DNA of 64,000 nt, taken from positions 2,001,254 to 2,065,253 of the forward strand of contig NZ_CP013141.1 in NCBI RefSeq assembly GCF_001442535.1, read 5' to 3'. This DNA comes from Lysobacter antibioticus (GTDB lineage Bacteria > Pseudomonadota > Gammaproteobacteria > Xanthomonadales > Xanthomonadaceae). Below the pieces are notes generated by a model, which was not told the DNA's origin, searched no databases, and was given only the letters and a program-made list of their open reading frames with translations. A program made the position numbers and the translations under genes. Positions within the stretch are counted from its first letter, which is position 1, and each line of letters begins with the position of its first letter. Below are positions 37,860 through 59,802 of the stretch, piece by piece.

Positions 37860-38300
37860 TGAGCACTTGCGAAGGCTAAAGAAGATCCGGAGGGCGGCGC
37901 GCAGGGATGCGCGCCGTTTTTCATGCGCCGCAAGACCGTCGCAGCGCGGTCGCGGCTTGCGCCGCTCCTACTCTTTGAGGCGGCGGCCACGACGCCCTGA
38001 TCTCGCGTCGCTTGCGACTGGAGCTCAGGGTAGGAGCGACGCAAGTCGCGACCGATCTCGCGGTGTTTCGACAAGCAAGAGCAGAAGCTTCCGTCCGCTA
38101 ACGCGGCCGGGTTACTTTCTTTTGCTAAGCTCAAAAGTCCGCCTGGATTCCCTTCGGTCAAAGGTAACCAAAGAAAAGGGCTTTCCTTGACGAAGCTCCC
38201 CTGCGAGTACGCAGCTCGCGCCGGGATTTTCCGATAAGACATCCTTGTCTTATCGGAAAACGCCGCACGTCCTGTGCGGCGCCCTCCGGGTCTACGATCG
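37860..38300. repeat. Composite dispersed repeat, locus A
   Basis: The 660 bp between the SapC gene and potI hold no gene. From left to right there is a forward GGA-loop hairpin with T-tract (37888-37925), an outward-facing REP pair (37948-37971 and 38030-38052), then an inverted half of the dispersed element: GTTACTTTCTTTTG, CCCTTCGGTCAAAGGTAACC, a 34-bp perfect palindrome (38227-38260) and a second hairpin (38262-38280). The same modules recur at 43861-44095 and 58801-59300. Short open frames inside it read from the hairpins and are unlikely to be genes. Confidence 0.8.
38227..38260. terminator. Perfect 15-bp hairpin with flanking A and T tracts
   Basis: TTTTCCGATAAGACA pairs perfectly with TGTCTTATCGGAAAA around loop TCCT. 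It has the form of a terminator on both strands. On the minus strand the apex reads ACAAGGATGT, which matches the CsrA/RsmA consensus ACARGGAUGU. It lies 3' of potI and could end the pot operon. Confidence 0.7.
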
Positions 38301-42899: not shown

Positions 42900-43688
42900 A
42901 TGTCCGACCGCACTCATCGCCTTCGCCGTGCACCGAGTGCGATCCTGTTGGCCTTGGGGCTGGCAGGCCTGTCGCCGCTGGCCGCCGCCGCGCAAGACTC
43001 CACCGACGCTGCCACGGCCGCCGAACCGCCGGCCTGGGCCGTGCACGGCGGCGTGAGCGCGCTCAGCGACTACATCTGGCGCGGCGTGTCCCAGACCCAG
43101 GAAGACCCGGCGTTGCAGGCCGAGATCGAGCTTGAACACGAGAGCGGTTTCTATGTCGGGCTGTGGGGATCGAGCATCGATTTCACCGCCGCCGGCGAAG
43201 AGGACGACGGCATCGACTACGAACTCGACGGCTACCTCGGCTGGGCCGGCGAACTGCGGCCCGGCCTGGAACTGGACGTGGCCCTGACACGGGCGGCCTA
43301 TCCGGGCGCGCGTTCGGGCTACGACTACGATTACACCGAACTCGAAGGCACGCTCAACTTCGCCGTGCACTACCATGTCGGCCTGGCCTACTCGCCGGAC
43401 ATCTTCGGCCTCGGCGGCAAGGGCTACTACTGGAACGCGGGCGGCGAATGGCCGCTCGGCGAGAGCGGCTTCGGGTTGAAGGCGCAGGTCGGCCACTACG
43501 ACTTGGAAGACGCCGCTGGCGACAGTTACAACGATTACCTGTTGGCGCTGACGCGGGAGTTCGGGCCGGTGCGGGCGGAGTTGCAGTACACCGATACCTC
43601 GAGTTATGGGGCTGAGTTGTCGGAGGCGCTTGACGATGGGAAGTTGGCGGATGGGCGGGTGAGTTTGGTGGTGGGGTGGGAGTTTTAG
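42900..43688 (+). CDS. Outer-membrane protein of the TIGR02001/Gcw_chp type
   Basis: This 262-residue protein has a signal peptide (ending LAGLSPLAAAAQ) and a beta-barrel-like mature part beginning VHGGVSALSDYIWRGVSQTQEDPALQ, the signature of the TIGR02001 family. Alternating strands such as FYVGLWGSSIDF and the terminal aromatic residue (VVGWEF) fit outer-membrane insertion. GGAGA precedes the ATG. Substrate unknown. The last 80 bp use many G and T third positions, unlike the rest of the gene. Confidence 0.88.
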   Translation: MSDRTHRLRRAPSAILLALGLAGLSPLAAAAQDSTDAATAAEPPAWAVHGGVSALSDYIWRGVSQTQEDPALQAEIELEHESGFYVGLWGSSIDFTAAGEEDDGIDYELDGYLGWAGELRPGLELDVALTRAAYPGARSGYDYDYTELEGTLNFAVHYHVGLAYSPDIFGLGGKGYYWNAGGEWPLGESGFGLKAQVGHYDLEDAAGDSYNDYLLALTREFGPVRAELQYTDTSSYGAELSEALDDGKLADGRVSLVVGWEF

Positions 43689-43719: not shown

Positions 43720-43801
43720 GTAGGAGCGGCGCAAGCCGCGACCGCGGCAATCATGGCCTGCGTCGCCGCATGAAAGAGGTCGCGGCTTGCGCCGCTCCTA
43801 C
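43720..43801. repeat. REP doublet upstream of repeat locus B
   Basis: A forward GTAGGAGCGGCGCAAGCC and an inverted GGTCGCGGCTTGCGCCGCTC face each other across about 35 bp. It begins 32 bp after the stop codon of the outer-membrane protein gene. Confidence 0.88.
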
Positions 43802-43839
43802 CCGAAAGCAGGCTTGCTGTTGCTGTGCGTCGCTTCGCA

Positions 43840-44095
43840 CTCGCGAAGGCAATAGAAGACCCGGAGGGCGGCGCGCAGGGATGCGCGCCGTTTTTCATCG
43901 GGACAGGGATGTCCCGTATGAAAAAGCCCTGTGTTGGCATCGAACGCGCGGGCCTGTGATTCAAAAAGAAGCATTTTTCTTTGGTTACCTTTGACCGAAG
44001 GGAATCCAGACGGACTTTTGTTGCTTTAGACAAAAGAAAGTAACCCGCCGCTTTAGTGGCGGAAGCTTTTAGCGTTTGATCTTGATCTTGCTTGA
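43840..44095 (+). repeat. Dispersed GGA-hairpin element, locus B
   Basis: This is the clearest copy of the dispersed element. It has hairpin 1 (43869-43890, loop AGGGAT, followed by TTTTT), hairpin 2 (43899-43916, CGGGACA-GGGA-TGTCCCG), then a region with CTTTGGTTACC, GACCGAAGGGAATCC, a CTTTTGT/ACAAAAG hairpin, AAAGTAACC and a CCGCC/GGCGG hairpin. The whole block recurs at 58801-59060 and inverted at 59080-59300 and about 38100-38300. Another single REP half lies at 44125-44147. No protein is encoded with any confidence. Confidence 0.82.
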
Positions 44096-44166
44096 TCGCT
44101 TCGAAGCGAGACTGCAACAACGATGTCGCGGCTCGCGCCGCTCCTACCCTGAACGCAAATGCGAAC

Positions 44167-45096
44167 TCACCCGAACAACCCTCGCTCGCACACCCCGACC
44201 ACCACCTCCCGCAACCATTGATTGGCCGGATCGAACTCGCTGTTCGCATGCCAATACAGATGCAACTGCGCCGCAGGCAGCGCGAACGGCACCGCGGCGC
44301 GTTGCAACTGCGCGCTGGCTGCGATGCGTCCGGCCAGGCCGGCCGGCATGGTCAGCAGATGGTCGGACTCGGCCACGACCTGGCAGGCGGAGTGGTAGTT
44401 CTGGCAACGCAGGGCGATCTGCCGCTGCAGGCCGAGGTTGAGCAGGGCGATGTCCTCGATTACCTGGCCGCTGGCGCGGGTCGACACCGCGACATGGCGC
44501 GCCTGCAGGTATTGCTTGAGGCTCAGGCGTTTCGCCAGGGCATGGCCGCGACGCATCACCACGCAGAAGCCGTCCTGGAATAAAGGCCGGTGCCGCACGG
44601 GTTCGCTGATCGGCAGGGCGACGTCGATCGCCAGGTCGACCTGGCCGCCGGCCAGTTCGCGGCCGAGTTCGCGCCGCGTTACCGCCACGCTGGCCAGGGT
44701 CGCGCCCGGGGCTTGCGTATCCAGGGCCTGCGCGAGCGCAGGCAGCAGGGCGCTTTCGGTCGCGTCGGGCATGCCGATGCGGAACGACTGCCGAGTCCGC
44801 GCCGGGTCGAAACGGTCCCACTGCTGCAACAGCTCGCGCAGGCGGCCGAGGGCGTCGAGCAGGCTCGGGGCCAGGCGCTGGCAGGCCGGGGTCGGGCTCA
44901 TACGGCGGCCGTCGCGGACGAACAGCGGGTCGCCGAATTGCAGGCGCAGGCGGGCGACGGCATGGCTGACCGCCGACGGGGTCAGGAACAAGGCCTGGGC
45001 GGCGCGGCTGAGGTTCTGCTCGCGGTAGACCGCCTCGAATACTTTAAGCAGGTTGAGGTCGAGCTGGTCGGTCCTGTTATGAATATGGCTCATCAT
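44167..45096 (-). CDS. LysR-family transcriptional regulator
   Basis: This 309-residue protein has an N-terminal winged helix-turn-helix (LDLNLLKVFEAVYREQNLSRAAQALFLTPSAVSHAVARLR) and a LysR substrate-binding domain from about residue 95. It is divergent from the acyl-CoA operon by 87 bp and most likely controls it. A perfect GAAGT-N11-ACTTC box lies three bases from its start codon, which suggests autorepression. The ATG at 45096 is followed directly by a second ATG; no Shine-Dalgarno sequence is seen. Effector unknown; an acyl-CoA or hydroxy acid is a reasonable guess. Confidence 0.9.
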   Translation of the reverse strand: MMSHIHNRTDQLDLNLLKVFEAVYREQNLSRAAQALFLTPSAVSHAVARLRLQFGDPLFVRDGRRMSPTPACQRLAPSLLDALGRLRELLQQWDRFDPARTRQSFRIGMPDATESALLPALAQALDTQAPGATLASVAVTRRELGRELAGGQVDLAIDVALPISEPVRHRPLFQDGFCVVMRRGHALAKRLSLKQYLQARHVAVSTRASGQVIEDIALLNLGLQRQIALRCQNYHSACQVVAESDHLLTMPAGLAGRIAASAQLQRAAVPFALPAAQLHLYWHANSEFDPANQWLREVVVGVCERGLFG

Positions 45097-58741: not shown

Positions 58742-59300
58742 GGTCGCGGCTTGCGCCGCTCCTACTCCTTGTTTCGCCGGCTCCGTTCTGGCTATGCGCA
58801 GCCTCGCACTCGCGAAGGCAGACGAAGACCCGGAGGGCGGCGCGCAGGGATGCGCGCCGTTTTTCATCGGGACAGGGATGTCCCGTATGTAGATCCCCGC
58901 GTGTGCGCCGCTCGTGCGGGCTTATGATTCAAAAAGAAGCAACTTCTTTGGTGACCTTTGACCGAAGGGAATCCAGACGGATTTTTGTTGCTTATGACAA
59001 AAGAAAGTTACCCGCCGCTTTAGTGGCGGAAGCTTCTATCGTTTGATCTTGGTCTTGCTGGAAGCTACTAGCTTCTAATGCTTAGGATCAAACGCAAGGA
59101 GCTTTCGCCCGCAAGCGGGCGAGTTACTTTCTTTTGTCATAAGCAACAAAAGAAAGGTAACCAAAGAAAAATGCTTTTCTTTGAATCAAGAGCCCGCGCG
59201 TGCGAAGCCGACGCAGGCATGCGCCACACGGGACATCCATGTCCCGGTGGCTCACGGCGCGCATCCTTGCGCGCCGCCCTCCGGGTGTCCATCGGTCTCG
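58742..59300. repeat. Dispersed repeat loci C and D in inverted orientation
   Basis: The 1116 bp between lhr and the gene at 59803 hold no gene I can support. A REP half (58742-58765) leads into locus C (58801-59060, plus orientation; hairpins at 58838-58859 and 58868-58885), which faces locus D (about 59080-59300, minus orientation; hairpins at 59229-59246 and 59255-59276). A long hairpin GTTACTTTCTTTTG / CAAAAGAAAGGTAAC lies at 59123-59161 in D. Together they form an imperfect inverted repeat of about 500 bp. Confidence 0.82.
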
Positions 59301-59360
59301 CGAGTTATAAACCGCGCAAAGCAACAGCCAAGCACAGCAACAGCCGCCGGCGGCCCGAGG

Positions 59361-59441
59361 GTAGGAGCGGCGCAAGCCGCGACCGCGGCAAGGATGGGCC
59401 CGCGTCGCCCCATAAGAGGTCGCGGCTCGCGCCGCTCCTAC
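59361..59441. repeat. REP doublet after repeat locus D
   Basis: A forward GTAGGAGCGGCGCAAGCC and an inverted GGTCGCGGCTCGCGCCGCTC face each other, with a spacer (GACCGCGGCAA...ATGGGCC) similar to that of the doublet at 43720. The rest of the gap to 59803 shows nothing else I can name. Confidence 0.85.
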
Positions 59442-59802
59442 CCCGAGATGAAAGAGCGGCATCTACTGGATGGTCGGCGATCCCCAGCCCGTTCAGCGGA
59501 CCAATCGATCCATTTCCCCATATCGATAGCCACGCCTGCGAACTCGGTCGCCATTTTTCGCTGAAGCGTTAAGCCTGCGCGTGTAATCGCCATGACGTTG
59601 ATGAACGCATGGCGAACAAATCGTTGCGACCGTAACGTCGCCTTCGCGGTCTACGGTGGCACTGTAGGTTTTGAGATCGATCCGTCGAACGGCGAGCGTG
59701 TCGCGGAGTCATCGTGGCACCGGGTGATCGCCACCCCGTTCGATCCCGCCCGCGCATCTGATCGCTCGCCATGCGTCCGGGTTCTCGCTCTAGGAGTCGA
59801 CC

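Follow-up and report, generated by a model that had tools for sequence, protein, structure and literature searches.

The element analyzed here lies between a TorF-type porin gene (plus strand, ending at 43688) and a convergent LysR-type regulator gene (44167-45096, minus strand) of the 64-kb window, by which we mean the whole stretch of Lysobacter antibioticus DNA under study. This complete copy, a member of subfamily A, occupies 43814-44084 on the plus strand; many of its own-genome blastn matches span query base 15 to about 285, and others reach 351. At its upstream end is an array of the hexamers GTTGCT or GTTGCC (GTTGCY; 43814-43830), and such arrays stand directly upstream of most A and B copies in this genome. 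All further parts are read on the plus strand. By sequence and fold, the first is a mini-hairpin, P1 (43859-43869), which reads ACCC-GGA-GGGC. Its CCC/GGG stem is invariant, and 88 of 90 distinct sequences from relatives have a GNA loop (GGA, GAA, GCA, or GTA); GNA loops form unusually stable mini-hairpins. Hairpin 1 (HP1; 43869-43890) has an 8-bp stem, CGGCGCGC/GCGCGCCG, and the loop AGGGAT at 43877-43882. Behind it, a terminator-like run, TTTTT (43891-43895), also contributes to hairpin 2 (HP2; 43891-43925 including its outer stem), as part of the outer 5′ arm. The HP2 core, CGGGAC-AGGGAT-GTCCCG (43899-43916), presents the same loop at 43905-43910, and its outer stem pairs 43891-43898 with 43918-43925 around one bulged T at 43917. 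Both hairpins are supported by fold and covariation, and the spacing from GGA to GGA is 28 nt (43879-43881 and 43907-43909). Downstream follow a predicted local hairpin GCCC...GGGC (43926-43953), whose equivalent in some other genera pairs with the 5′ flank instead (stem P0); the stem region HP3 (GGTTAC...GTAACC; 43983-44045), with an interruption of about 20 bases in this copy; and HP4, a small G+C hairpin CCGCC...GGCGG (44045-44062), then AAGC. HP3, with its pyrimidine-purine arms, and HP4 recur across genera (43983-44062 here; loci L077, L088, and L302), and similar hairpins occur outside the order.

The 70-nt core (43857-43926) is predicted to fold as P1, HP1, and HP2 at −41.2 kcal/mol (z = −6.1), and none of 200 shuffled sequences was as stable. 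The predicted fold adds an A-U pair atop each hexaloop, leaving GGGA unpaired, and a longer fold of 43800-44080 has z = −5.1. The hairpin coordinates, the shared AGGGAT apex, the differing stems, and the TTTTT behind HP1, all reported in the original prediction, can be read directly in the sequence. We found no sigma-70-like promoter in the gap that holds this copy.

Five copies occur in the window, near 37887 (plus), 38289 (minus), 43861 (plus), 58830 (plus), and 59284 (minus). The first (37884-37923, plus) is truncated and consists of P1 and HP1 without HP2. The second (38218-38292, minus) belongs to subfamily B, with the loops AGGAC in HP1 and AAGGAT in HP2 and the HP2 stem GATAAG/CTTATC. 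The last two form an inverted pair, with a subfamily A copy as its left half (58827-58901, plus) and, as its right half (59213-59287, minus), an A-like copy without the T run and with loops AAGGAT and ATGGAT. Variation of HP2 across the window is as previously claimed, and ACANGGATGT occurs four times against 0.17 expected, a count reached by none of 100 shuffles. GTAG-headed REP sequences (GTAGGAGCGGCGCAAGCCGCGACC and its inverse) flank the elements at 43720-43801, 44125-44147, and 59360-59443.

That the hairpins are part of a dispersed repeat, as originally proposed, is confirmed by the genome, a single contig of 5,765,140 bases. A pattern of P1 plus HP1, which also picks up truncated copies but not variants like ACCCGAAGGGC, matched 187 times (99 plus, 88 minus), and the reversed pattern did not match at all. 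A covariance model returned at least 150 matches. Copies fall into two subfamilies: A, with a hexaloop in HP1 and the HP2 stem GGGAC/GTCCC, and B, with the HP1 pentaloop AGGAC and the HP2 stem GATAAGAC/GTCTTATC or near variants. Within 471 kb taken around copies, we counted 159 (93 A, 66 B), and beyond HP2 the family continues with HP3 and HP4. Copies within the genome are nearly uniform along the length of the element, so similar that a stronger constraint on the loops is not resolvable among them. Chance palindromes were rejected as an explanation by the motif excess in the window, the 187 versus 0 pattern control, and the comparison with shuffled folds.

The element is widespread among related bacteria. 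With a 211-base piece as query, blastn found a match in all 20 genomes of the genus (own included) and in 24 of 41 relatives. In three overlapping samples, a covariance model built from 48 copies (R1) was run with thresholds of E ≤ 1e-3 for the family and order and E ≤ 1e-5 for the class. It matched 103 of 198 genomes in the family (39 of 54 genera), 110 of 299 in the order, and 18 of 274 in the class. Sixteen R1-matching genomes share the class alone, 11 of them with at least two matches, and all 24 class-level loci gave an R1 match when re-read; lone near-threshold matches in other families may be due to chance. When R1 was run on 57 of 119 stretches selected by pattern, it matched 26 of the 27 from the family or a Proteobacteria record and none of the 30 from other bacteria. 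A phage or plasmid origin was rejected: distant blastn gave no match in 72,556 plasmid records (two queries, the window copy and the L088 copy) or in 50,697 phage records (one query, the L088 copy). In the open-licence literature, we found nothing on repetitive extragenic hairpins in Lysobacter or on the sequence strings of the element, and no paper, as judged by titles and the start of abstracts, that links CsrA and repetitive extragenic palindromic sequences in an element of this kind.

The original prediction had deduced, from four copies, a constant loop on a covarying stem. We collected copies into three alignments: A1 (48 copies, mostly from this genome), A2 (93 rows from relatives, 90 distinct), and A5 (58 rows with 57 distinct sequences, drawn from family, order, and class but with none from the genus), which are not fully independent, as some A1 loci recur in A2 and some genomes are common. 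In A1, 98.9% of cells were paired, both sides had changed in 8 of 13 pairs (6.1 in shuffles), and the covariation score was 0.399 versus 0.153 shuffled. The corresponding values were 96.1%, 11 of 13 pairs (8.1), and 0.525 versus 0.129 shuffled and at most 0.103 slid for A2, and 97.3%, 13 of 13 pairs (10.6), and 0.716 versus 0.168 shuffled and at most 0.163 slid for A5. Slid controls reached at most 0.163, and the covarying stem with a constant loop is strongly supported. One of five measures, the number of further pair types, was no better than shuffles, 33 (A1), 115 (A2), and 89 (A5) of 500 reaching it. Model-fitted alignments lean to the structure of the model, and the shuffles ignore relatedness; such fitting bias is unlikely to be the full account, because of the size of the effect and because wholly different stem sequences surround the same loop. 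In some copies from Luteimonas and its kin (L109, L096, L112, L164, and L174), HP2 has tandem G-A mismatches (CCGAGCC/GGCGAG).

Sites bound by CsrA/RsmA have the consensus C-ANGGAN-G, or CAGGANG in the CsrB type. These motifs are described, in excerpts of one study, as GGA hairpins that are generally paired (PMC4333381). In counts that are partly circular because R1 favors GGA loops, A2 loops read A-(N)-G-G-A-N, with GGA in all 90 HP1 and all 87 HP2 loops and an A ahead of it in all 90 HP1 loops and 86 of the 87 HP2 loops, and A5 has GGA in 55 of 58 HP1 and 57 of 58 HP2 loops (three HP1 loops and one HP2 loop among its 58 rows lack it). In A2, all four bases are seen at the optional N and at the last N, and the closing pair is C-G throughout; a few closing pairs of A5 change to G-C or U-A. 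A check anchored on P1 requires no GGA, but its stretches had been chosen as copy-bearing; in those of this genome, it found GGA in 147 of 148 HP1 and 142 of 147 HP2 hairpins. Six of the 154 own P1 anchors had no HP1 stem by the rule used, five with GGA at the loop position and one truncated. The same check gave GGA in 52 of 52 HP1 and 50 of 51 HP2 hairpins at other relatives' loci, and in 34 of 34 and 16 of 22 at further family loci, in 12 of which the gapless stem rule found no HP2. In other bacteria, the counts fell to 5 of 18 and 2 of 13, though these had been picked by a GGA-containing pattern. Each full copy has two hairpins with GGA in the loop, like the CsrA/RsmA-binding hairpin motif and like CsrA/RsmA sites paired for one dimer. 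The freedom and constancy of the loop match those of the CsrA/RsmA site, with GGA kept and the N positions free, and the likeness originally noted is strongly supported. Two other roles were rejected: a Shine-Dalgarno function for the GGAGG of P1, since its middle loop base varies, and a start codon in the ATG behind GGG, since subfamily B reads GGAC.

The genome encodes two proteins with a CsrA domain. One is a canonical CsrA (MLILTRRVGETLMIGD...), which passes the NCBIfam CsrA cut-off (115.4 versus 73 bits) and gives close alignments to CsrA chains of solved structure (best E 1.7e-27). The second is divergent, scoring 43.5 of 73 bits with the NCBIfam model and passing the Pfam cut-off; its gene (L063:1444-1710) immediately precedes an HlyD-type secretion adaptor gene. 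Membership in a known Rfam family was rejected, as no gathering match was found in the window or in 20 loci of relatives. The highest sub-threshold bit score in the window gap was that of RsmW (30.9 of 52 bits), a match that spans 43720, in the REP pair, to 43930 and therefore carries low weight; microRNA models also hit the REP pair, and the core has weak matches to SpF22 and sX7. TwoAYGGAY (RF01731) matched 24 times in this genome at E ≤ 1, the best at 40.5 bits against a gathering score of 43 and none above it, and not once in 14 control genomes. Twenty-two of these matches coincide with listed copies and one more reads as a copy; with an open threshold, 4 of 17 other loci matched at 30.7-35.7 bits. 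TwoAYGGAY and RsmW both belong to clan CL00106. In the whole genome, nothing exceeded the cut-off with the models of RsmY (best 28.9 of 57 bits) and RsmZ (best 24.4 of 44 bits).

TwoAYGGAY shares with the element two adjoining hairpins and ANGGAN-type GGA loops. Excerpts of its description propose it as CsrA-binding, with tandem G-A pairs in one stem (PMC4333381), which resemble the HP2 mismatches of some Luteimonas-type copies; high-copy dispersion, P1, HP3, and HP4 are features of the element that are absent from that excerpted description. RsmW, RsmX, RsmY, RsmZ, and CsrB likewise have GGA-loop hairpins, with which they sequester RsmA/CsrA. Each of these sponges carries several GGA motifs and comes from one or a few dedicated genes, whereas the element is dispersed in about 190 copies, each with two GGA hairpins. 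RsmW, according to the excerpted report, derives from a 3′-UTR (PMC4950607). RsmU of Xanthomonas campestris is summarized as an RsmA-binding 3′-UTR RNA outside the known antagonist families, which still bound in vitro after all four GGA were changed, in a complex that looked smaller (PMC7694677). By their descriptions, RsmU is a single locus and comes from the same bacterial family as the element. As these excerpts present RsmU and RsmW, RsmA-binding 3′-UTR RNAs do exist. If transcribed, the element would work like TwoAYGGAY or an Rsm-type CsrA-binding RNA, without being a member by Rfam's rule.

Some relatives have an additional stem, P0, which surrounds P1, HP1, and HP2. Across 13 sequences, both sides had changed in 6 of its 12 pairs (3.7 in shuffles), with a score of 0.359 versus 0.207; further pair types in this alignment (A4) did not exceed shuffles, 474 of 500 reaching them. 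By an alignment-free measure, 45 of 138 flank pairs lay above the 95th percentile of swapped flanks, where about 7 were expected (16 of 83 from A2, 29 of 55 from A5); the 138 are what was left of 151 rows once 7 that were short or at edges, 2 duplicates, and 4 containing N had been removed. The window copy has a weak P0, and its 3′ flank makes the local hairpin. For G-T mismatches to pair, the RNA must be the GGA strand; for A-C mismatches, it must be the opposite strand. Mismatches in the above-threshold P0 stems were 25 G-T, 3 A-C, and 22 other (p = 2.7e-5, by a statistic that ignores relatedness), and this wobble bias toward G-U on the GGA strand favors RNA. HP1 and HP2 lean the same way, weakly (10 versus 3 in 1930 pairs). 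Compared by folding energy, P0 favored neither strand, the sense strand being better in 65 of 138 cases.

We then placed copies relative to genes called with a home-made gene finder, whose calls are rough, with uncertain starts and some genes missed. Only 1 of 159 copies lay inside a predicted gene, and 91 of the 158 outside genes were in a convergent setting. Of 87 element-bearing gaps in this genome, 49 were convergent, 37 tandem, and 1 divergent, compared with 17, 82, and 43 of the element-free gaps in the same stretches. One further genome of the genus and five other genomes (22 and 30 elements) gave 25 convergent, 13 tandem, and 3 divergent element gaps versus 6, 40, and 19 element-free ones. 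The element thus avoids divergent, promoter-bearing gaps, as REPs do, and a role as a 5′ leader, also put forward in the original prediction, finds no support in this distribution. Tandem-setting copies were sense to both neighbors in 32 cases and antisense in 32 (8 and 9 in the six other genomes), which speaks against a simple sense 3′-UTR role. In convergent gaps, either orientation could be read by one neighbor; in tandem gaps about half of the copies could not, and with antisense as frequent as sense, about half would need a promoter of their own. Orientation shows no replichore bias between the genome halves (28/40 versus 25/37), with a slight minus excess among the matches listed (77 versus 53, p = 0.04).

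Taken together, it is reasonably probable that RsmA binding is the reason for the loops and that each copy encodes a putative RsmA-binding RNA module. Such a module would consist of two stem-loops showing C-A-(N)-GGA-N-G and the GNA-loop hairpin, with P0 around them in some relatives. The GGA strand could be transcribed by read-through from a flanking gene, more than half of the examined copies lying between convergent genes, or else from an unfound promoter. One CsrA dimer could bridge both loops, the roughly 190 copies could together form a distributed RsmA sponge, and each copy could couple the stability or the 3′ end of the transcript that carries it to RsmA. Copies may have spread as a repeat in inverted A/B pairs, in the manner of REP dimers. 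An RsmA decoy, as earlier suggested, appears to fit, because a canonical CsrA is present and the top sub-threshold Rfam matches, RsmW and TwoAYGGAY, are CsrA-clan RNAs. The conservation of P1, HP3, and HP4 is unaccounted for by CsrA and counts against an RsmA-binding module, as do the scarcity of G-U pairs in HP1 and HP2, the lack of a strand preference in the P0 energies, the restriction of above-threshold P0 stems to 45 of 138 flank pairs, the neutral orientation in tandem gaps, and the negative promoter search in the window gap.

Antagonists of CsrA/RsmA are known as a few dedicated small RNAs. It is conceivable, as a tentative extension that we regard as doubtful, that the antagonist function resides here in genome-wide mobile RNA cassettes (about 190 in this genome) that seed RsmA sites at gene ends, so that RsmA activity would be set by the summed transcription of hundreds of loci and not by dedicated RsmX/Y/Z genes. 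If true, a high-copy dispersed RNA module present in several families would be a new way to set or wire the activity of a global regulator, and it would be a case of a repeat in which the fold is conserved and the stem sequence is not. The element is also a testable candidate for RsmA control in a genome where the RsmY and RsmZ models find nothing over cut-off.

A different account takes the element as a REP/BIME- or MITE-like DNA repeat, whose hairpins would be single-strand DNA marks for a transposase or DNA-binding protein, whose inverted A/B pairs would be the mobile unit, and whose likeness to CsrA sites would be a coincidence or by-product. Several observations suit it. Close pairs are inverted in A-B arrangement in 65 of 71 cases, which makes them BIME-like dimers of two related units in inverted order, and 29 of 38 facing pairs are 400-460 bases apart. 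GTAG REPs and BIMEs (SMAG type) are likewise described, in excerpts, as dispersed intergenic palindromes that form inverted pairs at gene ends and avoid divergent gaps (PMC3733652), as the element does, and GTAG-headed REPs adjoin it. The genome has three Y1-transposase matches, one with an internal stop. Orientation is neutral in tandem gaps. G-U pairs are scarce in HP1 and HP2 (10 of 1930 pairs), below the expectation for RNA stems and compatible with palindrome correction at the DNA level. However, the loop varies where the CsrA consensus permits, P0 mismatches are G-U and not A-C on one strand, and the HP1 and HP2 stems differ freely among relatives, unlike a sequence-specific end. The element is also larger than a GTAG REP and has several hairpins, and its GGA loops stay constant where stems are rewritten. 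Only 14 of 93 rows in A2 and 23 of 152 matches in this genome have GTAG immediately before ACCC, and in A5 the commonest sequences at that position do not include it; the element is not built with GTAG at the foot of one short palindrome, and the GTAG REPs are separate neighbors. On this evidence a DNA repeat as the whole explanation seems unlikely, and an RsmA-binding module is compatible with a repeat that looks mobile.

The original prediction also offered a regulated terminator, and the element could be a terminator or 3′-end stabilizer cassette for convergent genes, in which HP1 and the T run would terminate transcription and HP2 would cap the 3′ end. The excess of convergent gaps agrees with this, as does GTTTT behind HP1, which 69 of 90 distinct rows have (the 90 include 3 truncated copies). 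A terminator-like site was called at 43871-43886, one of two sites found in all where shuffles give 1.0 on average. As a conserved role, termination is less supported: in several Lysobacter a GC-rich sequence replaces the T run, yet the loops are kept and the HP2 outer stem is maintained by pairing. Orientation in tandem gaps is neutral, and a terminator has no need of a GGA loop, so that we consider a cassette of this kind quite improbable. Functionless, recently copied repeats with stems kept complementary by replication template switching would suit the near-uniform own copies, which carry no within-genome sign of extra loop constraint, and the scarce G-U intermediates, but are very improbable given the cross-family conservation, in which stems are rewritten and the ANGGAN loops of two separate hairpins stay, loops that template switching would leave unpreserved.

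Two further arrangements were observed among relatives. One relative with four listed matches has an inverted pair inside a flagellar operon (L095:1114-1575), between fliP and a putative fliQ-like ORF that stands ahead of a FliR-type gene. At L171:5830-5877, a match to the Xanthomonadaceae sRNA sX5 (49.8 of 50 bits) stands beside an element pair.
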